From Saccharicrinis aurantiacus (GTDB taxonomy: Bacteria; Bacteroidota; Bacteroidia; Bacteroidales; Marinilabiliaceae), in assembly GCF_001660705.2 (NCBI RefSeq), contig NZ_LYBV02000036.1, forward strand, positions 62,001 to 126,000: a DNA stretch of 64,000 nt, given 5' to 3'. The notes beneath the pieces are model-generated. The model saw only the letters and a program-made list of their open reading frames with translations, was not told where the DNA came from and searched no databases. The translations under genes were made by a program, and so were the position numbers. This document shows positions 14,189 through 24,796 of this stretch, in pieces; the first letter of the stretch is position 1; every line of letters begins with the position of its first letter.

Positions 14189-14809
14189 TTATTTCTGATT
14201 ATCAATTTTAAAGGAATAGCCATCTTCTGCATTTCCATTTAAGGATATATTAACCTCAGTTACGCCTTCTAAATCTTGCTCAAAGAAATGATCGGTATTT
14301 AATACTGCAGAGTTAAGTAATGCTCCCTCTTGAATCTCTGAAGCAATTCCCCAGTACAATTTGGGCTTAAGAACAAAAGTGGCTTTTTGGCCATAACCAA
14401 CAATGTTTTTGGTCATCATCAATTTACCATCTTTGTATAAAGATGCACTTACACCATCAGGTATGTTTGCATCATTATTAATATCGATTGATTTAGTATC
14501 AGAAGCATTTCCGTTTTGAGCAAGCACAATACCAGTATCGTTTTTGCTCACTGTATATCGTTTTCCAATATCCGATGATAAAACCTGAGTCTTATTCATT
14601 CCGCCTTTCCATGTGGCTCCTACTTCTGTAATAATAGGAAATACAAAACTACTAGAAGAACCTCGTCCTATATCAGGAATAGTTCGCCATGCCACGCCTT
14701 CCTTTAGTACATCGAAGGTTGGGATTTCGTTTTTTGTAAATACAAAAACCGTAGGTAAGTCCTTATTCATGGACTTATTAGTGTAGGTAATTTTAATTTC
14801 TGTTGACAT
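14189..14809 (-). CDS. Unrecognised 206-residue protein, paralog family member 1
   Basis: I do not recognise this family. The protein is 206 residues, has no signal peptide or membrane segment, and looks beta-rich. Features shared by all four members are ITYxNxSxNxDxPxxFVFxxNE at the start, GVAW, IGRGSxSxF near residue 50, IGKRYTV-like, a TGIVLxxxGNA block near residue 95, a KxYxGIASxI segment and SLNGNAxxGYxFxI at the end. It differs from the next upstream copy at only about 16 of 206 positions, so that pair is a recent duplication. It is the last gene of a tight five-gene minus-strand operon (19-base gap to the neighbour). The lack of export signals suggests a cytoplasmic role or release by a non-Sec route. 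Confidence 0.85.
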   Translation of the reverse strand: MSTEIKITYTNKSMNKDLPTVFVFTKNEIPTFDVLKEGVAWRTIPDIGRGSSSSFVFPIITEVGATWKGGMNKTQVLSSDIGKRYTVSKNDTGIVLAQNGNASDTKSIDINNDANIPDGVSASLYKDGKLMMTKNIVGYGQKATFVLKPKLYWGIASEIQEGALLNSAVLNTDHFFEQDLEGVTEVNISLNGNAEDGYSFKIDNQK

Positions 14810-14828
14810 AATAATATTAATTTAGAGT

Positions 14829-15449
14829 TTATTTTTGACTATCAATTTTAAAGGAATAACCATCTTCTGCATTTCCATTTAAGGATATGTTAACTTCGCT
14901 TACGCCTTCTAAATCTTGCTCAAAAAAATGATCGGTATTTAACACTGCTGAGTTGATTAATTCACCCTCTTGAATCTCCGATGCAATACCCCAATACAAT
15001 TTGGGTTTAAGAACAAACGTGGCTTTTTGACCATAACCAACAATTTTTTTTGTCATCATTAATTTGTTGTCTTTGTATAATGAGGCACTCACACCATCAG
15101 GTATATTAGCATCATTATTTACTTCTATCGATTTAGTGTCAGAAGCATTTCCATTTTGAGCAAGTACAATACCAGTATCGTTTTTGCTCACTGTATATCG
15201 TTTTCCAATATCCGAAAGCAAAATTTGGGTTTTATTTACTCCTTCTTGCCAAGTAGCACCGACTTCGGTACTTATTGGGAATACAAAACTACTAGAAGAG
15301 CCTCGTCCTATATCAGGAATAATTCGCCACGCCACGCCTTCTTTTAATGCATCGAAGGTAGGAATCTCGTTTTTTGTAAATACAAAAACCGTTGGTAAGT
15401 CTTTATTCATAGACTTATTAGTGTAGGTAATTTTAATTTCTGTTGACAT
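14829..15449 (-). CDS. Unrecognised 206-residue protein, paralog family member 2
   Basis: Nearly identical to the downstream copy (about 92% by eye); most changes are conservative, such as D/E and V/I. All family landmarks listed for member 1 are present: FVFTKNE, IGRGSSSSF, TGIVLAQNGNAS, LYWGIASEI and SLNGNAEDGYSF. There is no signal peptide. It lies 31 bases downstream of the 254-residue gene in the same operon. Retention of two intact near-copies in tandem suggests selection for dose or very recent amplification. Function unknown. Confidence 0.85.
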   Translation of the reverse strand: MSTEIKITYTNKSMNKDLPTVFVFTKNEIPTFDALKEGVAWRIIPDIGRGSSSSFVFPISTEVGATWQEGVNKTQILLSDIGKRYTVSKNDTGIVLAQNGNASDTKSIEVNNDANIPDGVSASLYKDNKLMMTKKIVGYGQKATFVLKPKLYWGIASEIQEGELINSAVLNTDHFFEQDLEGVSEVNISLNGNAEDGYSFKIDSQK

Positions 15450-15480
15450 GTTTTTATTTATTAGTGTTTATTAAAAATAA

Positions 15481-16245
15481 TTATTCTTTAGGCTTAAAAG
15501 TTTCAACTGAAGTTGTTAACCCTTTAAGAAATGTTCTTCCTGCAGAAAATTCTGTTAGTGCATGTATTATATCCTGTGAAGAAAATTTATTACCAGAAAC
15601 TGGATAACTCTTTGAAGACAGGCATTTAACATCAGCAATAGTTGTTTCTATCGATATTTTTAAGCTTCCAGAAACGTAGTCTTCATCTTTAATAGTAATT
15701 TTTGTATCTCCTATTTCAGGATTGCAGGTAGGTAGAGTAATTGTTGCCCCTGTAATATTTCCTGACTTTAAATTACTTTTTATTTGTTCTAACTTTGATT
15801 TTATTCTTGTCCGAATTTCATCGTTCATTTTACTTCCCAGAAAGCTCATCAAATCTTTTTGGAAACCACTAGAGGGTGTAGGGATTTTATTATTTGATGT
15901 TAGAACAATTGATACATAAGTATTTTCAACTTGTTGTTCACTACCCTCTTCTAAATAACTTTCAATTCCTTTTTCAATATCAATCAACTCTTCGGTTGGT
16001 GTATTTGCTGTTTCACTCATTTTTATTTGTTTTATGTTTGTGATACCATTGTTACATTCTAATTTGCCTCCGTTTTCTATTATTTTTCTATTATATTCTT
16101 CGTGTGAAAAAATATCAGTATCAGAAGGACTTCCATGAATTAAGATGTTTCCGTTATCTAAAAAACGGTAGTTCCAATTACCATTGTTCGGTAAGATTTT
16201 ATTAACATTCAGAATACCAGATATTTTAAATGCATAATCTTTCAT
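15481..16245 (-). CDS. Unrecognised 254-residue protein inside the paralog operon
   Basis: This gene interrupts the run of ~206-residue paralogs and does not belong to their family. The first ~75 residues contain a short beta-like segment (NWNYRFLDNGNILIHGS). A polar, acidic linker around residues 80-110 is followed by a mixed region with the repeated-charge helix MNDEIRTRIKSKLEQIKSNLKSG and a C-terminal beta-rich part. There is no signal peptide, membrane segment or catalytic motif that I recognise. Gaps of 31 and 12 bases to its neighbours place it firmly in the same operon. It could be a partner or a carrier of the paralogous proteins; that is a guess. Confidence 0.75.
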   Translation of the reverse strand: MKDYAFKISGILNVNKILPNNGNWNYRFLDNGNILIHGSPSDTDIFSHEEYNRKIIENGGKLECNNGITNIKQIKMSETANTPTEELIDIEKGIESYLEEGSEQQVENTYVSIVLTSNNKIPTPSSGFQKDLMSFLGSKMNDEIRTRIKSKLEQIKSNLKSGNITGATITLPTCNPEIGDTKITIKDEDYVSGSLKISIETTIADVKCLSSKSYPVSGNKFSSQDIIHALTEFSAGRTFLKGLTTSVETFKPKE

Positions 16246-16257
16246 TTTACATATGTT

Positions 16258-16887
16258 TTAGCTTCCTCTTTCTATTTGAAACTGATAGCCTTTTTGCGCA
16301 TTCCCATTTAAAGAAATCTCTACATAAGTAAATCCTGTAAGATCTAATTCGAAAAATTTAGTACTACTAAGCACAGCCGATTTTAAACTACTACCTCTAG
16401 TTATGTCAGATGCTAATCCAAAATAAATTTTATTGGTAGGCTTAAATATTGCAGATTGTCCATATCCTACCTGATTCTTTGCTAATAGTATTTTACCACT
16501 ATTGCAAAATTGAGCTGATATTCCATCAATAACTTCTATAGTATTTTCTATTTCAATGGTCTTTTCATCCGAAGCTTCACCATCAGGCTTTAATACAATA
16601 CCAGTTGTATCTTGCATAACCTGATATTTACTTCCTATTTTAGCAGTAATTTGTGCTGTTTTATTAGAAAAGTTATCCCAATAAGCTTGCACACTAAATT
16701 GATCATTGTAATAAAAGGTAGAACGGGATCCCCTGCCTATATTTTTAATTACACTCCACGCAACACCTTCTTCCAAACAATCAAAATTAGGCGTTTCATT
16801 TTGAGCAAAAACAAACACTTGGGGCAAGGATTTATTCACCGAGTTATTAATGTAGCAAATCTTGGTTCCTCTTTTTAAATTATCCAT
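16258..16887 (-). CDS. Unrecognised 209-residue protein, paralog family member 3
   Basis: A diverged member of the same family: KICYINNSVNKSLPQVFVFAQNE at the start, GVAW, IGRGSRSTF, TGIVLKPDGEAS, KIYFGLASDI and ISLNGNAQKGYQFQI at the end. There is no signal peptide. Its start codon shares one base with the stop codon of the upstream member (TAATG), which indicates translational coupling. The family core is kept while loop regions vary, as expected of an old duplication. Function unknown. Confidence 0.82.
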   Translation of the reverse strand: MDNLKRGTKICYINNSVNKSLPQVFVFAQNETPNFDCLEEGVAWSVIKNIGRGSRSTFYYNDQFSVQAYWDNFSNKTAQITAKIGSKYQVMQDTTGIVLKPDGEASDEKTIEIENTIEVIDGISAQFCNSGKILLAKNQVGYGQSAIFKPTNKIYFGLASDITRGSSLKSAVLSSTKFFELDLTGFTYVEISLNGNAQKGYQFQIERGS

Positions 16888-17510
16888 TATTCTTGATGAT
16901 CTATTTTAAAGTGATAACCAATTTCTGCATTCCCATTTAAAGAAACTGTTGCAGCACTAACATTTGCTAAATCCTGTTCAAAAAATTGAACACTATCTAA
17001 CACAGCAGAAGAAATAGATTGGGAAACCTTAATTTCAGAGGCAATACCCCAATAAATTTTAGGTGCTAATTGAAAGGAAGCTTTTTGCTCATAAGCTACA
17101 ATGTTTTTTTTCACAATCACATTGCCACCTTTAAGGAGTTGTGCGCTTATACCTTTCTTTACTTGGATATTATTCATTAATTCAATATCCTTGGGGCTAA
17201 TCGCATTTCCATCTTCCATCAATAAAATTCCAGTAGCATTTTTCTTTACTGTATACCGCTTGCCAATTTCACATGTCAATTGATTGGTTTCATTCGCTCC
17301 TGCTTCCCACGTTGCTAGGATGCTAGTTTTTGAGGGAAATAAAAAAGTACTACGCGAACCTCTTCCAATATTCTTAATTACTTTCCATGCTACACCATCG
17401 CGTATAGCATCAAAAGATGGCAACTCATTTTGGGTGAAAACAAATATGCTAGGCCTATCCTCATTTAAGGAATTATTGACATAGGTTATCTTTACGTCGC
17501 TATGGTGCAT
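16887..17510 (-). CDS. Unrecognised 207-residue protein, paralog family member 4 (operon head)
   Basis: First gene of the five-gene operon. It shares the family landmarks: ITYVNNSLNEDRPSIFVFTQNE, GVAWKVI, IGRGSRSTF, TGILLMEDGNA, KIYWGIASEI and SLNGNAEIGYHFKI. The start is supported by a good Shine-Dalgarno sequence (AAAGGAG, six bases before ATG), which is unusual in Bacteroidota, where translation generally does not rely on one. No signal peptide. Its stop overlaps the start of member 3. The promoter should lie in the 570-base gap upstream. Function unknown. Confidence 0.83.
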   Translation of the reverse strand: MHHSDVKITYVNNSLNEDRPSIFVFTQNELPSFDAIRDGVAWKVIKNIGRGSRSTFLFPSKTSILATWEAGANETNQLTCEIGKRYTVKKNATGILLMEDGNAISPKDIELMNNIQVKKGISAQLLKGGNVIVKKNIVAYEQKASFQLAPKIYWGIASEIKVSQSISSAVLDSVQFFEQDLANVSAATVSLNGNAEIGYHFKIDHQE

Positions 17511-18080: not shown

Positions 18081-18569
18081 TTAATTCAGGTCAGCATAGT
18101 TACCTGATACCTGATTAACACAAGCAGACCAGTATAATTTAAGTTTTTCTCCATCCCCTAATTTTCTTAATGCATCTTGGATTTTGCTATCTGTTTTTAT
18201 TAAATCAGATAGCAAAGTAGGATTATCAACCGTAACAACATTCTCTTTTTCTCCTATAACAACCTCACCCCAGCTACTAAGATCTCCTAAGTTATATAGT
18301 GTAAAATCAGGTGAATATGACCCACCTGTATAAATCACAAAGGGAGGCTCTATAATTGTATTTCCACTACCATTATCATGATGCAATGTTAGCGTCTTAA
18401 TTTCAATTTGATCAATTAAGGTTTCTGCTACCGAGGTTGTTAAAGCATATCCAACAGGTGACAAAATATAAAGATCAATATTTTTTGGAAGCAGCATATT
18501 AAACTGTCCGCCTGGATAACTACCATGTCCTAAAAGGACTAAATCATTGTTATTAACAAGTACACTCAT
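18081..18569 (-). CDS. Putative Stv-domain-like protein (162 residues)
   Basis: A small protein with no signal peptide. Its layout resembles what I remember of the putative adhesin Stv domain: an early LVLLGHGSYPGGQF (HG-G), a LLPKNIDLYILSPVGYAL stretch, a mid SPDFTLYNL segment, and a C-terminal LKLYWSACVNQ motif. The resemblance rests on memory of the pattern, not a search, so the name is tentative. It is co-oriented with the paralog operon but separated from it by 570 bases, and lies downstream of the AraC-type regulator gene on the same strand. A TTTA tetranucleotide run and a 7-bp inverted repeat (CTACTAG / CTAGTAG) precede its start. Confidence 0.65.
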   Translation of the reverse strand: MSVLVNNNDLVLLGHGSYPGGQFNMLLPKNIDLYILSPVGYALTTSVAETLIDQIEIKTLTLHHDNGSGNTIIEPPFVIYTGGSYSPDFTLYNLGDLSSWGEVVIGEKENVVTVDNPTLLSDLIKTDSKIQDALRKLGDGEKLKLYWSACVNQVSGNYADLN

Positions 18570-19044
18570 AATTTTATTTATTTATTTATTTATTTCGCTA
18601 CTAGTGCTTCTAGTAGTCGTTATTTACACTTTATCTATTAAAACTAAATAGAGTAAATATTCCATTAAGTATCAGAAAATCAATGCAATATACGGATAGG
18701 TCTTTTTTGAGACTGTAATGGTTTATTTCAGTTATTACTTTTATTTGCGCTTGATTTAAGGTTTTTTATACGTCTATTTTTACCATTTAGCACACCTATA
18801 AGTAAGTTTTGTTAATGAATCTCAAATAGGATTTGCTACAACCATAGTGTATGCTTATAAAACTTGGCATATTGTATGCCTGGTACATTTGTTGGATCAT
18901 TTCCTGTTTAAATTTCATTTTTTATCAGCTCCAAACCTGCAGTGTAAGTTTCTGATTTTCATTTATTCTAATTGTACAATTACTGAATTATTATAAATCT
19001 AAGTTATCGTAATGTTTTTTATTCAAATTGTATAAAACGGACAA
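18570..19044. other. Intergenic region between the Stv-like gene and the regulator
   Basis: 475 bases without a credible ORF. It contains a short TTTA tandem run (18573-18595), an inverted repeat CTACTAG-N5-CTAGTAG (18598-18616), and from 18963 the 3' flank of the regulator that is repeated at two other places. Confidence 0.6.
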
Positions 19045-19073
19045 TTATTTAGCAATTTGACTCAGCAACTCAT
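18963..19073. repeat. Repeat copy B (3' end and flank of the intact regulator)
   Basis: Reference copy for the three-copy repeat. It shares GAATTATTATAAATCTAAGT and TTGTATAAAACG with copy C (19907-20020) and GCAATTTGACTCA with both other copies. Confidence 0.75.
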
Positions 19074-19835
19074 GTTTTAATTCTGATACATAGCAATAGA
19101 TTTCATCATTGAACTCACCGGCTGTGCAGTCAAAGGCTTTGGTAAAGTGCCTTGAAAGATGTGAAGCGTCAAAAAATCCAGAGAGAAATGCTGCATCTGA
19201 AATTGATTTGTTCTGTATCGCAATTAATTCGGCTGCATATTGTAATCGTAAATTTCGGACTAACGTCATGGTTGTAATACCAAGTGATGTCACTAACTTT
19301 CTATTTAGCTTTGAAGAGCTCATAAAAATATTTTGAGCCAAGTATTCTGCGTAAAGAGATTCACTGCCTAGTTTCTCAACTACGATAGTTAGCAGTTTGG
19401 TTAGCCATAAATTTTTATTAGCAAGTTGAATTAATTGCTTAAAATGAACTTCATTCAAGGGGAATTCCCAATTCAGTAATTTAGGATTACTTCTTAATGC
19501 TTTTTTGCGATATGCAAACGGACTAATACCAAGCTCTACTTTGAACTTCCGGCTAAACACAGTTAAACTACTGAAGCCAGATTTAAGAGCTATTTCCTCT
19601 ATCGATAATGTGTTTATTCTTAATATTTGTTGTGCATATTCCATCCTATACTTCAAAATTAGTTTCCCAGCAGAATTACCGGTTTGATTTTTTAGGTCTC
19701 TATTAAGTCGTGTTTTGCTAATTTTTAATAATTCGGATAATTGTTGTACTCCGAATGTTGAGTCCGTTTTTTTTCCTGTATAATAAGATGGATTTTATCC
19801 ATTAATTTGGAACAGTGGGTGTTGGCTTCTTTCAT
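19045..19835 (-). CDS. Double AraC-type DNA-binding regulator, interrupted by a frameshift in an A8 run
   Basis: The open frame of 203 residues starts at 19656, but clear AraC-type coding sequence continues upstream in the same frame (FGVQQLSELLKISKTRLNR, then KLILKYRMEYAQQIL). A good start (MKEANTHCSKLMDKIHL) at 19835 is out of phase by one base. The switch falls in a run of eight A (19767-19774 on this strand); nine A would restore one protein of about 264 residues. That protein would be two AraC-type helix-turn-helix domains in tandem (about residues 15-110 and 150-250) with no sensor domain. It is either a pseudogene, a product of polymerase slippage on the A-run, or a one-base sequencing error. 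It probably regulates the genes downstream of it. Confidence 0.72.
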
Positions 19836-19906
19836 TATTTTTTGTTTAATTAAATGTATTTTTCTTTTAGAGTAGCAGGAATCCTTAAAGAGTCTTAATC
19901 TTGGTA

Positions 19907-20020
19907 GATTCTAGTTTTACAATTATTGAATTATTATAAATCTAAGTTATTGTGAGATGTCTTAATTAAATTGTATAAAACGAGCAACTTTTTGGCAATT
20001 TGACTCATCAACTCATATTT
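19907..20020. repeat. Repeat copy C (flank of the decayed regulator)
   Basis: Shares GAATTATTATAAATCTAAGT, AAATTGTATAAAACG and GCAATTTGACTCAtCAACTCAT with the flank and 3' end of the intact regulator at 18963-19073. Confidence 0.75.
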
Positions 20021-20367
20021 AATTACCAGCTGTGTATTTATAGGATTGTTGAAGAGACTTGAAAGGTGTGAAGTTTAGACAAAGCCTGAAAATGATGCTA
20101 TATCTATTGAACGCATGAACTCTACATTAATTTTAGGCTTGTAGTACCAAATAATTCTGCTAATCATCAATTTTTATTAGCGAGTAGAATTATAATGGAC
20201 TTTATTTAACCGTAATTGCCAATTCAGTATTAAATTAACCTGTGTTCTAGTATTTAAAGTACTTAAGATAATTTTAGCGGCTTAAATGTTGTGTTAGAAT
20301 TTTTTCTTGTATAATAATGTGAATTATTATAGATAAGCTTAAAGTTGGTGTTATTAGGTTCAATCAT
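19986..20367 (-). pseudogene. Decayed, internally deleted copy of the AraC-type regulator
   Basis: About 380 bases align in order with the 791-base regulator next door. The 3' end matches at TTTGGCAATTTGACTCATCAACTCAT, the interior at GACTTGAAAGGTGTGAAG and CATCAATTTTTATTAGCGAGTAGAATTA, and the 5' end at TTCTTGTATAATAATGTGAATTATTATAGATAAG. The upstream flank TTTAATTAAATGTATTTTT matches as well. Large internal deletions and many stops rule out function. An ancestral start codon would be at 20367. This shows the regulator locus was duplicated and one copy is being lost. Confidence 0.8.
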
Positions 20368-20639
20368 TATTTAATATTTAATTAAATGTATTTTTTGTTT
20401 AACTATCGAATGTAAATAAAATTGAAATGCTTAACAAATTATATATTTGATAAATTGGTCTGTATATGAAAGGATTAAGCCATGCTTTGTGTAGGATATA
20501 AAAATGTTGATGCGCTACTGATACTTCAGTTTGTAACTAATTAATTCGGGTAGGATGAATCAGGTAATTGTTTTGTCTTGCAACATTCTTGGATGATCGA
20601 TTGATATCAAGTTTGCAATATGCTCTATTAACGGAAAGG

Positions 20640-20708: not shown

Positions 20709-20885
20709 CTTACAGAAAGCGGTGCTTTAATTGAAATATGTAGCGTAACAGGAGCGGTAATAAAAACTCAAATTTCAAGCTCGGAGCTACAATATATTTC
20801 AATTTCTGATTTAGATAGAGGAATGTATATAATTAAGGTTAAGGGGGATGATTCGTCATTTACAAGTAAGTTATTGGTAAAATAG
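20709..20885 (+). pseudogene. Orphan T9SS C-terminal sorting domain fragment
   Basis: The 58 codons before the TAG at 20883 read as the end of a T9SS type A sorting domain: LTESGALIEICSVTGAVIK, then ISISDLDRGMYIIKV and a final SKLLVK. It closely resembles the tail of the secreted protein at 23729-24796 (VEICNVAGSVVKS, DLAKGMYVLKV, KLLVK). A TAG at 20706 interrupts the frame directly upstream and no start or cargo domain remains, so this is the relic of a lost secreted protein, possibly a former copy of that gene. A terminator follows 24 bases downstream. Confidence 0.8.
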
Positions 20886-21140: not shown

Positions 21141-21170
21141 TTGTGATTCTAAGTTATAATTTTACATTTC
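21141..21170 (+). promoter_or_regulatory. Bacteroidota-type promoter for the RT-associated RNA
   Basis: TTG at 21141-21143, a spacer of exactly 19 bases, then TACATTTC at 21163-21170. This fits the Bacteroidota -33/-7 consensus TTG-N19-TAnnTTTG with only the last base different. Transcription should begin near 21176, just before the structured region. Confidence 0.65.
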
Positions 21171-21175
21171 TTTAA

Positions 21176-21356
21176 AAAATATTTAACTAAATAATGAAGA
21201 TATGTCCTAAGGGGACAAACGGAAGTTACAACTCCTGATTGAAATGTTAGGAACAGGTTCAGGTTAGTTTTTCAAATAAACTTGATAAATGAAAACTTAT
21301 TTTTATTTGTAGTTTCCGTGTGAATCTCCTCCTCTCTAAAAGAGGTGGAGATTTTT
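21176..21356 (+). ncRNA. Structured noncoding RNA upstream of the reverse transcriptase
   Basis: About 180 bases between a promoter and an intrinsic terminator, with no ORF. A small hairpin TGTCC/GGACA (21203-21217) comes first. Then ACGGAAGTTACAA (21219-21231) pairs with TTGTAGTTTCCGT (21307-21319) as 13 continuous base pairs including two G-U wobbles, enclosing a 75-base loop. Inside, CCTGA (21234-21238) can pair with TCAGG (21259-21263), and two U5 runs lie at 21268-21272 and 21300-21304. The terminator hairpin ends the RNA 14-18 bases before the RT start codon. A dedicated RNA next to a stand-alone RT is the layout of retrons and of single-gene defence RTs (DRT2 and DRT9 types). The assignment is inference from structure and position. 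Confidence 0.65.
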
Positions 21357-21360
21357 GTTT
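21323..21360 (+). terminator. Intrinsic terminator between the ncRNA and the RT gene
   Basis: AATCTCCTCCTCT pairs with AGAGGTGGAGATT (one T-T mismatch in 13 positions) around loop CTAAA and is followed by TTTTGTTTTT. The RT ATG is at 21374, so RT mRNA must come from read-through. Confidence 0.85.
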
Positions 21361-21373
21361 TTAAGTTTGAGAT

Positions 21374-22873
21374 ATGAAAAAAACAATCTTACATGAGATA
21401 AAAAAAGAAGCTGAGGAAAAGGCAATCGCTCACCAAACTTATCACAATTATTTACATCTCAATTATCTTAGAAACTGTAGAAGAGTTAAGGATGCTCCTC
21501 CAAAAGAAATAAAAGTACCTGAGGAATGGTCTGTTGATAAGAAATTTAACCCTTTTTATGTGTTAAAGCATAAAGATAAAATTGCAAAATCAATTGCTTT
21601 AAAGTTGCTCAATAAAACATATGAACCTAACAAACCATTTGTAAAAGAGATTCCTAAAAAGGGGGGTGGTAAAAGAACAATAAATATTTATCAAATTCCA
21701 GACTCTGCAGTGTCTGATAGATTTTATTATAATTTATTAAGTAAAAATAAACACCGTTTTAGTTCTTTATCATATGCATATCGTAACGATAGAAATATCC
21801 ATTTTGGGATACAAGATATAGCGCACGAATTGACAAGTACTCCTCGCATATATGTTGCGGAGTTTGATTTTAGTGATTTTTTTGGTTCAATTAATCATGA
21901 ATATTTATTTAAACAATTAGAGCAAAATTCCTTTTTGGTAAGTGATCTGGAGATGCATGTTATTCAATCTTTTTTAAAACCATTTGACAAAGGAATTCCG
22001 TTAGGTACTTCAATCTCCTTATTTCTAGCAAATGTAGCATGTTGGAATTTAGATAGAAAATTCGAAGACGCAGGAATTCGATTTGCTAGGTATGCAGATG
22101 ATACTATTATTTGGTCTCGTCATTATTCAAAAATATCAGCAGCATTTGATATAATAGTGGACTTCTCGAAACAAACGGGTATTAAAGTGAACTATAATAA
22201 GTCTGATGGGATAAGTTTATTGCAACAGTCTGGTTTAAGATCTGAATTGCATAATTCTAAGAGCTTTGTTGAATTTCTTGGTTATAGGATTTCGTGCGAA
22301 AATGTTGGAATTAAAGAAGATGCTGTACATAAGATTAAAAAGCAGGTCTCTTATCTATTATACAGGAATTTAATTCAACCAATACAGGCACGTCCATTCA
22401 AAGCAATGAATATACCAGCTAATGGATTAGATAAAGATTTTATTACAGCTTTAATGCAAGTAAGAAGATATTTGTATGGAAATATGACTGAAATAACTTT
22501 AAAAAAGTATCTTAATGGAACATATAAGAGACTTTCCTTTAAAGGAATAATGAGTTTTTACCCTCTCATTACGGATGAAAAACAGATGGTTGAATTAGAC
22601 AAATGGTTTTTAAGCACTGTACTGAATACTTTGAATAAGCGTAAGAAGATACTGATTACTCACAACTCGAATTTTAACGTTAATCAATTTCCTTTTGACT
22701 GCGATAAGAATGACTTGATAGAAAAGTGTAGAACTACACCAATATATGGTAAAAAAGGTCTCATCGAATTACCTTCCTTTATGAGAATTTATAAAGCATT
22801 AAAAATGGGAGTTACAAATGAAGGTATTGAAAAAGTTATGCATCCTAAATCAAGTATTTATTATGACGAATAA
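21374..22873 (+). CDS. Stand-alone reverse transcriptase (retron/DRT-like, class unassigned)
   Basis: A 499-residue RNA-directed DNA polymerase. RT motifs are in order: KRTINIYQIPDSAVSDRF (about 100-117), SYAYR (133), AEFDFSDFFGSI with the first catalytic Asp165, GIPLGTSISLFLAN (207-220), RYADDTIIW with Asp242 and Asp243, NYNKSDGISL (273-282) and FVEFLGYRIS (298-307). About 190 mostly helical residues follow. Catalytic residues are intact. It lacks the retron VTG motif (FLGYRIS occupies that place) and a clear NAxxH, has no maturase or endonuclease domain, and no group II intron or variable repeat is nearby. A structured RNA with its own promoter and terminator precedes it, as in single-gene antiphage RTs (DRT2/UG2 and DRT9/UG28 types). 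Defence is inference; subgroup needs a phylogeny. Confidence 0.9.
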   Translation: MKKTILHEIKKEAEEKAIAHQTYHNYLHLNYLRNCRRVKDAPPKEIKVPEEWSVDKKFNPFYVLKHKDKIAKSIALKLLNKTYEPNKPFVKEIPKKGGGKRTINIYQIPDSAVSDRFYYNLLSKNKHRFSSLSYAYRNDRNIHFGIQDIAHELTSTPRIYVAEFDFSDFFGSINHEYLFKQLEQNSFLVSDLEMHVIQSFLKPFDKGIPLGTSISLFLANVACWNLDRKFEDAGIRFARYADDTIIWSRHYSKISAAFDIIVDFSKQTGIKVNYNKSDGISLLQQSGLRSELHNSKSFVEFLGYRISCENVGIKEDAVHKIKKQVSYLLYRNLIQPIQARPFKAMNIPANGLDKDFITALMQVRRYLYGNMTEITLKKYLNGTYKRLSFKGIMSFYPLITDEKQMVELDKWFLSTVLNTLNKRKKILITHNSNFNVNQFPFDCDKNDLIEKCRTTPIYGKKGLIELPSFMRIYKALKMGVTNEGIEKVMHPKSSIYYDE

Positions 22874-23075: not shown

Positions 23076-23215
23076 CCGGAAGGCATAATCTAAATAGATT
23101 ATTGGCCAAAAACCCGCCGGAAGCGCTTTGCGTATATAGATTATTGCCTAAATTCTTTCCGGAAGTGCTTTGCGTATATACGATAATGCTAAAATTCTTG
23201 TCGGTAGGCAATATC
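23076..23215. repeat. Imperfect 41-42-bp tandem direct repeat (3-4 units)
   Basis: CCGGAAG-type unit starts fall at 23076, 23117, 23159 and 23201, spaced 41, 42 and 42 bases. The two central units share GCGTATATA and a GATTATTGCCTAAATT / GATAATGCTAAAATT core. Confidence 0.75.
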
Positions 23216-23268: not shown

Positions 23269-23728
23269 AGCCTCAAAATTTAAAAGTCTCTTGCGTATTT
23301 AGGAGTTGGTTGATTATTAATGAGTTATCGTATGGGCTTGTTTTTTGCAAAGTCACTCTTTCTCAAAAAGAGGCATTTGCTAAGTGATATTACTCTTAAA
23401 ACTATAAAATACTAACCGACTTTTCATCGTTCACGCAATCCCATTCATAATAAAGCAAATACCCCGTATTATACCTAGCACAAAGTAGGTGCAAAGCAAG
23501 CGGTAAAAGTATGAGAAGATGTAATTATTTCGTTCATTTTGATGATAGAATATCCTAATATCTTAGTGGAAAATAAAAATATTTATAATTGTAAGGTGTA
23601 GTTATTCAGGGGTTTGTGTTTGTTTGTATTTGTATGTATAAATGTTAATACGGTTTGGACTTATGTGTATATGCATAGGCCGAAGTGTGTATAGTTTTAC
23701 AGTAATGTTAAATCAAAAAAATCATATT

Positions 23729-24796
23729 ATGAAAAAACAGTTACTTAAAATTAGCTTATTATTAATGTGTTTAGTTGGTGGTATTGCCAATGCACAAACA
23801 TGCGACGAAATTAAATTATTCTACAAAAACAGCGATGGCTCAAAAGGTGCTGAAATAGCAGATGATGGTGATGTTCAGTTAGGGTCTACAATAAAAGTTG
23901 AGTTGACCACAAGTTCTGATGTGGAAGGTAAAATTATATTTATGCAATTGGCAGGAACTGCCACATGGGTAAAAACGTACTCTCAGAATAGTGAGCCTAC
24001 TATACCTCAAGGAAACAGTCAGCAAACAGCCTTTGATTTTGATGTTAAAGCAGATGGGAATGCCGAGGTAGGAGCTAGTTTTTTTAAAGTAGTTTTTAAA
24101 GATGTAAATAATGATAATATTGGAACAGGAGGACAAAAGCCTGTTACCTTTACTGAGGCTGCACCAACTCCAGATGGTCCAACTATCACCTCAGGATCTT
24201 ATGTTGGGCAACCCTATGTGCAGTTTGGTACACCACTTAGTTATACTGTTGAATTTTCTTATCCAGATGATGGGAACGAGTATAAACTAGGTATACTGCA
24301 AACTAATTGGCTAGAAGGTGAAGCAAGTGCCAAGTGGGTTCAAACCAATAAAGTTGTATTAACAGGAGAAACAAGCCCATATTCAGGAACTTATAATGTT
24401 GTTACGCAAAATAATAGTGGAGTTAATTGTGTTGATGGTGTAGGTAATATAAGTTTTGTACTTTTTGTTAACGATGGAAATGGTGGTAATGATGCTATTT
24501 TAAATGATACAAAAATACAGATTCAGACTACATTCTCAACTACCCCAACTTCAATAGGCAGACCAGAAACATCAGCATTCAAAGTATATCCAAATCCTGC
24601 ATCAAGCCATGTTTTTGTTGAGGCAGCAGAGGGCAGTTTGGTTGAAATATGCAATGTAGCAGGTTCTGTTGTTAAGTCTTTAACTACTACATCAAGTAAA
24701 CAAAATATCTCAGTAGTTGATTTAGCAAAAGGAATGTATGTGCTTAAAGTTACAACAGATGGTAAAGCACAAACCACAAAATTATTAGTAAAGTAA
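23729..24796 (+). CDS. Secreted T9SS cargo protein of unknown function
   Basis: 355 residues from the ATG at 23729, chosen because it gives a normal signal peptide (MKKQLLKISLLLMCLVGGIANAQ); the longer frame to 23642 adds 29 residues with no such signal. The mature protein has two beta-sandwich-like domains (about 25-150 and 155-270) and then a T9SS type A sorting domain from FKVYPNPASSHVFVEA to the final KLLVK, which is removed at the cell surface. There are no catalytic motifs that I recognise. The adjacent sulfatase and GH16 genes suggest a glycan-related or adhesive role, but a repeat and a terminator separate them. Its tail matches the orphan fragment at 20709-20885. Confidence 0.85.
   Translation: MKKQLLKISLLLMCLVGGIANAQTCDEIKLFYKNSDGSKGAEIADDGDVQLGSTIKVELTTSSDVEGKIIFMQLAGTATWVKTYSQNSEPTIPQGNSQQTAFDFDVKADGNAEVGASFFKVVFKDVNNDNIGTGGQKPVTFTEAAPTPDGPTITSGSYVGQPYVQFGTPLSYTVEFSYPDDGNEYKLGILQTNWLEGEASAKWVQTNKVVLTGETSPYSGTYNVVTQNNSGVNCVDGVGNISFVLFVNDGNGGNDAILNDTKIQIQTTFSTTPTSIGRPETSAFKVYPNPASSHVFVEAAEGSLVEICNVAGSVVKSLTTTSSKQNISVVDLAKGMYVLKVTTDGKAQTTKLLVK

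Follow-up and report, generated by a model that had tools for sequence, protein, structure and literature searches.

A stand-alone reverse transcriptase (RT) gene preceded by a structured RNA region, found in the genome of Saccharicrinis aurantiacus, raises the question of whether the pair constitutes a new class of RT system or belongs to a family that has already been named. We examined it within a 64,000-nucleotide stretch of this genome (contig NZ_LYBV02000036.1, positions 62,001–126,000; hereafter the window, from the first base of which all coordinates are counted). A preliminary description had called the locus a candidate new DRT/retron-like system, while naming DRT9 among the systems that share its layout of a noncoding RNA (ncRNA) followed by an RT. 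The DRT-type ncRNA–RT part of that proposal stands; its newness does not, given that profiles, solved structures, a tree and a covariance model all place the locus in DRT9. The system is intact and of this known kind, and we are highly confident in reading it as a complete DRT9 (UG28) anti-phage system of Bacteroidota that comprises the RT gene and an upstream ncRNA (Table 1), its function being read across from the studied systems SenDRT9 and PsaDRT9 (that is, the DRT9 of Photobacterium sanctipauli). An intact DRT9 is thereby placed in Bacteroidota, far from the mechanistically studied Salmonella/Escherichia coli and Photobacterium systems. We found no account of this locus in the open literature on DRT9 as far as its text was accessible, and the string 'Bacteroid' is absent from the main text of PMC12483538 and PMC12489045; the window protein may nevertheless be among the 438 unique RT homologues given in the accessible text of PMC12483538.

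Table 1. Features of the DRT9 locus, in window coordinates
Feature	Position	Strand	Basis and remarks
Candidate promoter (weak)	21141–21164	+	TTG 21141–21143; TAATTTTA 21157–21164; also TATAAT 21155–21160
DRT9 noncoding RNA, predicted extent	21198–21362	+	Covariance model; 3′ end from sequence and fold
5′ stem-loop (UGUCCU/GGGACA)	21203–21217	+	Fold; covarying pairs
13-bp closing helix, 5′ strand	21219–21231	+	Pairing check; covariation at helix base
U5 tract, equivalent of SenDRT9 U4 template	21300–21304	+	Alignment with other DRT9 RNAs
13-bp closing helix, 3′ strand	21307–21319	+	End belongs to conserved CCGTG block (to 21320)
Terminator-like hairpin and T-rich tail	21324–21362	+	Sequence and fold; hairpin 21324–21352; between ncRNA and RT
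DRT9 reverse transcriptase	21374–22873	+	499 aa; profile, structure matches, alignment

Placement of the reverse transcriptase

The RT was described at the outset as an intact YADD enzyme, and its reading frame is indeed uninterrupted over 499 codons, with the YxDD catalytic motif of DRT9 present as YADD at residues 240–243. Its predicted structure (mean pLDDT 83.1, pTM 0.72) has an N-terminal helix (residues 2–37) with a conserved YHN motif, the tyrosine of which (Y23) shares an alignment column, invariant in 15 of 15 rows, with the Y25 of E. coli DRT9 that contacts the ncRNA (PMC12489045, accessible text). Two tyrosines, Y496 and Y497, lie near the C terminus, and the first of them is likewise invariant (15/15 rows).

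The PADLOC Drt9 profile matched residues 1–496 at 694.2 bits, and the second-best PADLOC profile, a general RT, reached 100.7 bits. Among solved structures, the best phmmer match was the DRT9 chain (E = 8.5e-165; 51% identity), deposited as 9IOA, 9IOB, 9NLV, 9NLX, 9VKU and 9VMA (PMC12483538, PMC12489045), to which the window model aligned with TM scores of 0.86–0.91; the best TM score outside DRT9 was 0.58, to a group II intron RT. SenDRT9 and E. coli DRT9 (UG28) share with the window the single 499-residue RT with its N-terminal helix, YADD and C-terminal tyrosines. As E. coli locus L064 encodes a protein that agrees with the solved chain at all 499 residues, the upstream DNA of that locus is a good reference for the studied ncRNA.

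In the tree, the 24 DRT9 rows (including the window) formed one clade apart from 43 other RTs (support 100/100), these being taken, without class names, from genomes of the relatives and phylum of the host; the phylogenetic check suggested in the preliminary description was in this way borne out as far as such rows allow. The 43 came from 48 non-DRT9 RT loci, 5 of which gave no protein within the length range of the tree, and the frame-shifted RT of locus L004 was left out of both the tree and the tyrosine count, its RNA being kept. The window RT is sister to that of L002 (100/100), a contig of an uncultured Sulfurovum metagenome-assembled genome (MAG) and the nearest relative found (69% identity). 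This pair groups at lower support (94/95) with L003, L104 and L109, which are loci from a Bacillus and from the search of its order. The RT of a Hymenobacter plasmid (L063, NZ_CP053906; 47% identical to the window RT), which also has a Bacteroidota host and carries the same RNA blocks, forms the earliest branch of the DRT9 clade, at modest support (90/87). Judged from its sequence, the window RT is thus a full-length DRT9 homologue; a further division of UG28, into UG28 and UG28b, is made in the accessible text of PMC8934634.

Other named RT families were scored against the same protein. Retrons, group II introns and diversity-generating retroelements (DGRs) share the RT core fold with it, and their named proteins matched far more weakly than DRT9, in agreement with the earlier statement that the RT is of none of these types: retron profiles gave 65.6, 41.1 and 23.2 bits against cut-offs of 235, 600 and 450, a group II intron RT/maturase profile gave 126.8 bits against a cut-off of 300, and the DGR reading failed on both its profile scores and its fold matches. 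The Drt3a profile reached 88 bits in one scan and 80.6 bits, against a cut-off of 200, in another. DRT2 (UG2), which shares the ncRNA–RT layout and assembles a de novo gene (PMC12483538, accessible text), was rejected, its profile giving 58.9 bits in one scan and 56 bits against a cut-off of 390 in another, with a TM score of 0.46 to 9c0i.

The upstream RNA and its homologues

The region upstream of the RT gene (21170–21366) folds at −54.2 kcal/mol, compared with a mean of −35.6 kcal/mol (s.d. 3.8) for 200 shuffled sequences, none of which reached so low an energy (z = −4.9). The two strands of the closing helix (ACGGAAGTTACAA and TTGTAGTTTCCGT) can pair along their whole length (13 of 13 positions, including two G–U pairs), and the minimum-energy fold contains 12 of the 13 pairs, so that the structured region closed by a 13-bp helix in the preliminary description is upheld. 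The intrinsic terminator named there is likewise recognizable as a terminator-like hairpin followed by a T-rich stretch, the hairpin being absent from the list of a terminator pattern scan. The predicted ncRNA would start between about 21170 and 21203 and end in the T-rich stretch 3′ of the hairpin, which gives a length of roughly 160–195 nucleotides.

The claim of a Bacteroidota promoter fares less well. The near-motif TAATTTTA is present, one base off TAnnTTTG, which we take to be the consensus of the Bacteroidota −7 element, and the upstream TTG lies nearer to it than what is presumably the usual promoter spacing; the promoter is therefore only a candidate. Exact TAnnTTTG motifs occur in the 70 bases that precede the RNA core at 5 of 24 DRT9 loci (L002, L012, L063, L070 and L101) and not within the same distance at the window locus.

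To look for the RNA independently of the window, we used a covariance model (R1) built from the upstream regions of 23 other DRT9 RTs, with the window excluded. R1 matched 21198–21321 at 65.1 bits (E = 8.8e-14; next match in the window, E = 0.18), and in the 5.88-Mb genome this was the sole match at E ≤ 0.001 (E = 8.0e-12, with 150 of 5,194 first-look candidates scored); these E-values are rough by the calibration of the model. In the 48 loci of other RTs the best E-value was 0.77, and members of the model themselves scored 90.4 (L064), 89.9 (L007), 74.1 (L002) and 71.1 (L063) bits. Four elements recur in the aligned DRT9 upstream regions: a stem-loop at the 5′ end, a block of the ACGG type, a template block in which four or five Us precede an A, and a block of the CCGUG type. 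The window RNA resembles those of SenDRT9 and E. coli DRT9 in having the 5′ stem-loop, the closing helix with CGG/CCG and the block with the U-tract; its core is shorter (124 bases compared with 150 in L064). The RNA alignment was a crop anchored on these blocks, given that longer upstream stretches mis-registered the gammaproteobacterial RNAs; the set of 24 RNAs leaves out L069 (110 upstream bases) and the duplicates L065, L066–L068, L071–L074, L100, L102 and L105.

Conservation of the upstream structure, which had been named as a check, was examined as covariation in 14 RNAs including the window, leaving out the ten with an inner part of differing length (L007–L010, L012, L013, L064, L070, L079 and L101). 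Standard pairs made up 92.9% of the cells in a 12-pair structure, and 8 of the 12 pairs had changes on both sides (5 of 6 in the 5′ stem-loop and 3 of 6 at the base of the closing helix). Sliding the partners by 1–3 columns lowered the paired share to 39–51% and the covariation score from 0.53 to 0.06–0.14, a comparison in which the 12-pair structure is somewhat favoured because it was derived from the consensus of the same sequences, although the gap in score is large all the same. RNAalifold on the 23 RNAs without the window gave 9 pairs, 5 of them with changes on both sides. Because DRT9 homologues retain this region and its pairs covary, it is more than a chance structure, and on this comparative evidence the window RNA is a homologue of the regions that precede the other DRT9 RT genes.

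These results bear directly on whether the locus is an ncRNA–RT class outside the named DRT families, to which we give almost no credence. Such a reading could draw on the stand-alone RT with its structured upstream RNA and on the silence of Rfam, which gave zero matches in the window at gathering score and at a relaxed threshold a best E-value of 0.08, all matches lying far below the family cut-offs. The DNA that precedes the E. coli DRT9 RT gene likewise had no Rfam match, so the silence on the window says little. Set against a new class are the full-length Drt9 profile match, the DRT9 structures as best matches, the position inside the DRT9 clade and the recovery of the RNA by a model built without it, which together refute this reading as far as sequence can. 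As DNA, the upstream region gave one match of about 40 bases, to a Leptospira plasmid, which we take as chance.

Proposed mechanism and variant residues

In the accessible text of the reports on SenDRT9, the ncRNA is both scaffold and template, with residues 123–126 (U4) templating poly-dA, and deletion of one uridine abolishes defence (PMC12483538); the C-terminal tyrosines probably serve as primers in a hexameric complex, which is triggered by T5 gp58 and silenced by exonuclease I (ExoI) (PMC12483538, PMC12489045). PsaDRT9 defends in E. coli (PMC12483538); L007, a locus of the same species, has an RT that is 52% identical to that of the window. The window retains the features tied to this mechanism, that is, the U-tract (as U5), Y23, YADD and two C-terminal tyrosines, albeit at another spacing. 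By analogy with SenDRT9 and PsaDRT9, the RT and RNA of the window would form a hexameric complex in which the looped U-tract would act as a short template that is repeatedly copied into poly-dA, with synthesis starting on a C-terminal tyrosine (Y496 and/or Y497) and the DNA staying attached to the enzyme. In healthy cells, a host 3′–5′ exonuclease would clear the poly-dA; on infection, higher dNTP pools together with a DNA-end-binding protein of the phage would allow it to accumulate, and the infected cell would stop growing or die before the phage could spread. The RT and its RNA most likely act as a two-part system of the DRT9 (UG28) kind, producing poly-dA primed on protein and aborting infection. 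A further primary report is said to describe poly(A)-rich cDNA made by a DRT9. Poly(A)-rich cDNA products are listed for DRT9 in the accessible text of PMC13213688.

The window differs from SenDRT9 and E. coli DRT9 in its template (U5 rather than U4), its C terminus (YY rather than YxY) and its host, which lacks a match to the ExoI-specific domain. The window has the four Us and the following A that show no variation across the other DRT9 RNAs (23 of 23), and a run of at least four Us (four or five) forms the template block in 24 of 24; the extra U, which precedes the U4, occurs in four RNAs of the 24 (the window, L003, L004 and L109). The adjacent C-terminal tyrosines are found in 2 of 24 proteins (the window and L002), compared with YxY in the remaining 22, the second tyrosine of the window lying at 497, beside Y496, rather than at the SenDRT9-type position (Y498). 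As L002 combines YY with U4, and L003 and L109 combine U5 with YxY, the two traits vary independently of each other and may reflect drift. Defence by SenDRT9 against T5 is abolished by a change to either tyrosine, and its loss against T2 requires changes to both (PMC12483538), so the spacing of the tyrosines may matter; the number of uridines needed in the template is still open according to the same authors. When the RNA is folded alone, its minimum-energy structure pairs every U of the U5 tract with 21291–21295, in contrast to the looped U-tract described for the solved DRT9 complex; either the protein would have to open this tract or the predicted fold is incorrect at this point.

No match to the ExoI C-terminal domain (PF08411) was found in the host genome (recorded as 100% complete) at E-values up to 1, whereas E. 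coli in the control set was matched; a search with this single domain model would miss a 3′–5′ exonuclease that is divergent or unrelated. The host thus seems to be without the enzyme that keeps such systems in check in E. coli. ExoI is required in E. coli to tolerate SenDRT9, and no transformants could be obtained with active SenDRT9 in an sbcB deletion strain (PMC12483538, accessible text), which, together with the lack of a PF08411 match, leads us to expect a brake other than ExoI in this host. It is conceivable, if rather doubtful, that DRT9 systems in hosts lacking ExoI, that of the window among them, are checked by another host exonuclease or by none, the ExoI switch being one of several brakes; the YY/U5 variant would in that case be a DRT9 lineage with its own priming geometry and trigger.

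The reading that the locus is derived from DRT9 and functionally shifted (that is, YY and U5 alter priming or the product, or poly-dA synthesis has been lost in favour of another mode), is, in our judgement, unlikely. The rarity of both variants and the host without the ExoI-specific domain would accord with a shift, but YADD and the RNA blocks are retained, and the separate occurrence of YY and U5 in relatives is compatible with drift within the family. For the preferred reading of a DRT9 that works as its studied relatives do, the adjacent tyrosines, the missing ExoI domain, the U-tract paired in the lone fold and the lack of a defence match among neighbouring proteins are the points that count against it. 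The value of the locus lies in its being a natural variant in a host without the ExoI domain, which can help with questions left by PMC12483538 in its accessible text (the number of template uridines, the priming tyrosine and the restraint of poly-dA without ExoI); YY, U5 and the lack of a detectable ExoI-specific domain may each deserve a test.

Distribution and genomic surroundings

DRT9 is rare in the sample of relatives and phylum genomes. Full-length-scale matches to the Drt9 profile occurred only in the host, both among 61 genomes (the host and 60 relatives) and among 395 (the host and 394 of its phylum), the remaining matches (scores up to 143.5 bits, covering a portion of the profile) being read as other RTs. 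At a limit of E = 1e-100, and with the centre genome counted, DRT9 was found in 3 of 394 genomes in the order of Photobacterium sanctipauli, 1 of 390 in that of Marinobacter sediminum, 2 of 348 in that of the Sulfurovum MAG and 6 of 387 in that of Bacillus sp. FJAT-29937. Most of a Photobacterium DRT9 query was present in 2 of 5,426 E. coli genomes and part of it in a third. Horizontal transfer is indicated by this patchy spread and by a nearest relative assigned to another phylum. Possible misbinning of the L002 contig is a caveat here, since a contig of only 4,984 bases is placed in Sulfurovum with some uncertainty. L002 carries an exact TAnnTTTG 51 bases upstream of its RNA core, although binned as Sulfurovum. 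In a Bacillota MAG (L004, 3998–5491), the DRT9 RT frame is broken and the RNA blocks and U5 tract are present.

Among plasmid records, one (the Hymenobacter plasmid, typed as mobilizable) covered at least 80% of the window protein in one place; among phage records, none did. Viral contigs gave no match with the window protein as the query and two with alignment A1 (L100, which is the contig of L079, and L101). The pattern CTTAYTTTTA-GTT-CCGTG occurred in 24 stretches of viral contigs, all in the database examined for DRT9 RTs, and one of them (L079) had a DRT9 RT; the other 23 look like chance. The same pattern had 0 matches in the window, the GTT–CCGTG gap of which is shorter than the pattern allows. 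On the viral contig of L101 (677–5102), the DRT9 lies between ORFs that by eye encode a lysozyme-like protein and an XRE/ImmA-type regulator, an arrangement that suggests phage-borne spread of DRT9.

The window further carries a TonB-dependent receptor with a SusD-like neighbour, a sulfatase and a type IX secretion system (T9SS) sorting tail, a gene content that by itself suggests a Bacteroidota host. PADLOC defence models matched none of the nine neighbouring proteins. A SLATT_5 search of the host genome gave nothing over the cut-off; its two weak matches, at E = 0.014 and E = 0.047, fall on contigs other than that of the window, and 9 of 14 control genomes likewise gave weak signals.

At 18965–20401, an AraC-type regulator stretch is repeated in degenerate form next to the AraC-type ORF 19045–19656; the copies of direct repeats D1, D3, D5, D6 and D7 lie 531–943 bases apart, and from the sequence we regard this spot as one of gene decay. 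A lone open stretch of 58 codons (20709–20885) is, as judged by eye, similar to the T9SS sorting tail that the protein 23642–24796 carries, and looks like a gene remnant. The DRT9 locus sits beside the degenerate repeat and this T9SS-tail-like fragment, a setting that might suit a domesticated or decaying remnant without defence function; we consider this very unlikely, as the RT is open throughout, YADD is kept and the RNA blocks are whole.

Further upstream, five small proteins (206–254 aa) lie in a row on the minus strand (14189–17510), of which at least the two at 16258–17510 are paralogues by eye; four of them compared with Pfam, and all five compared with PADLOC, gave no match. A protein with an Stv domain (18081–18569) adjoins this row. 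Downstream of the RT gene, a 42-base repeat is present in two tandem copies that are 79% alike (23091–23174).
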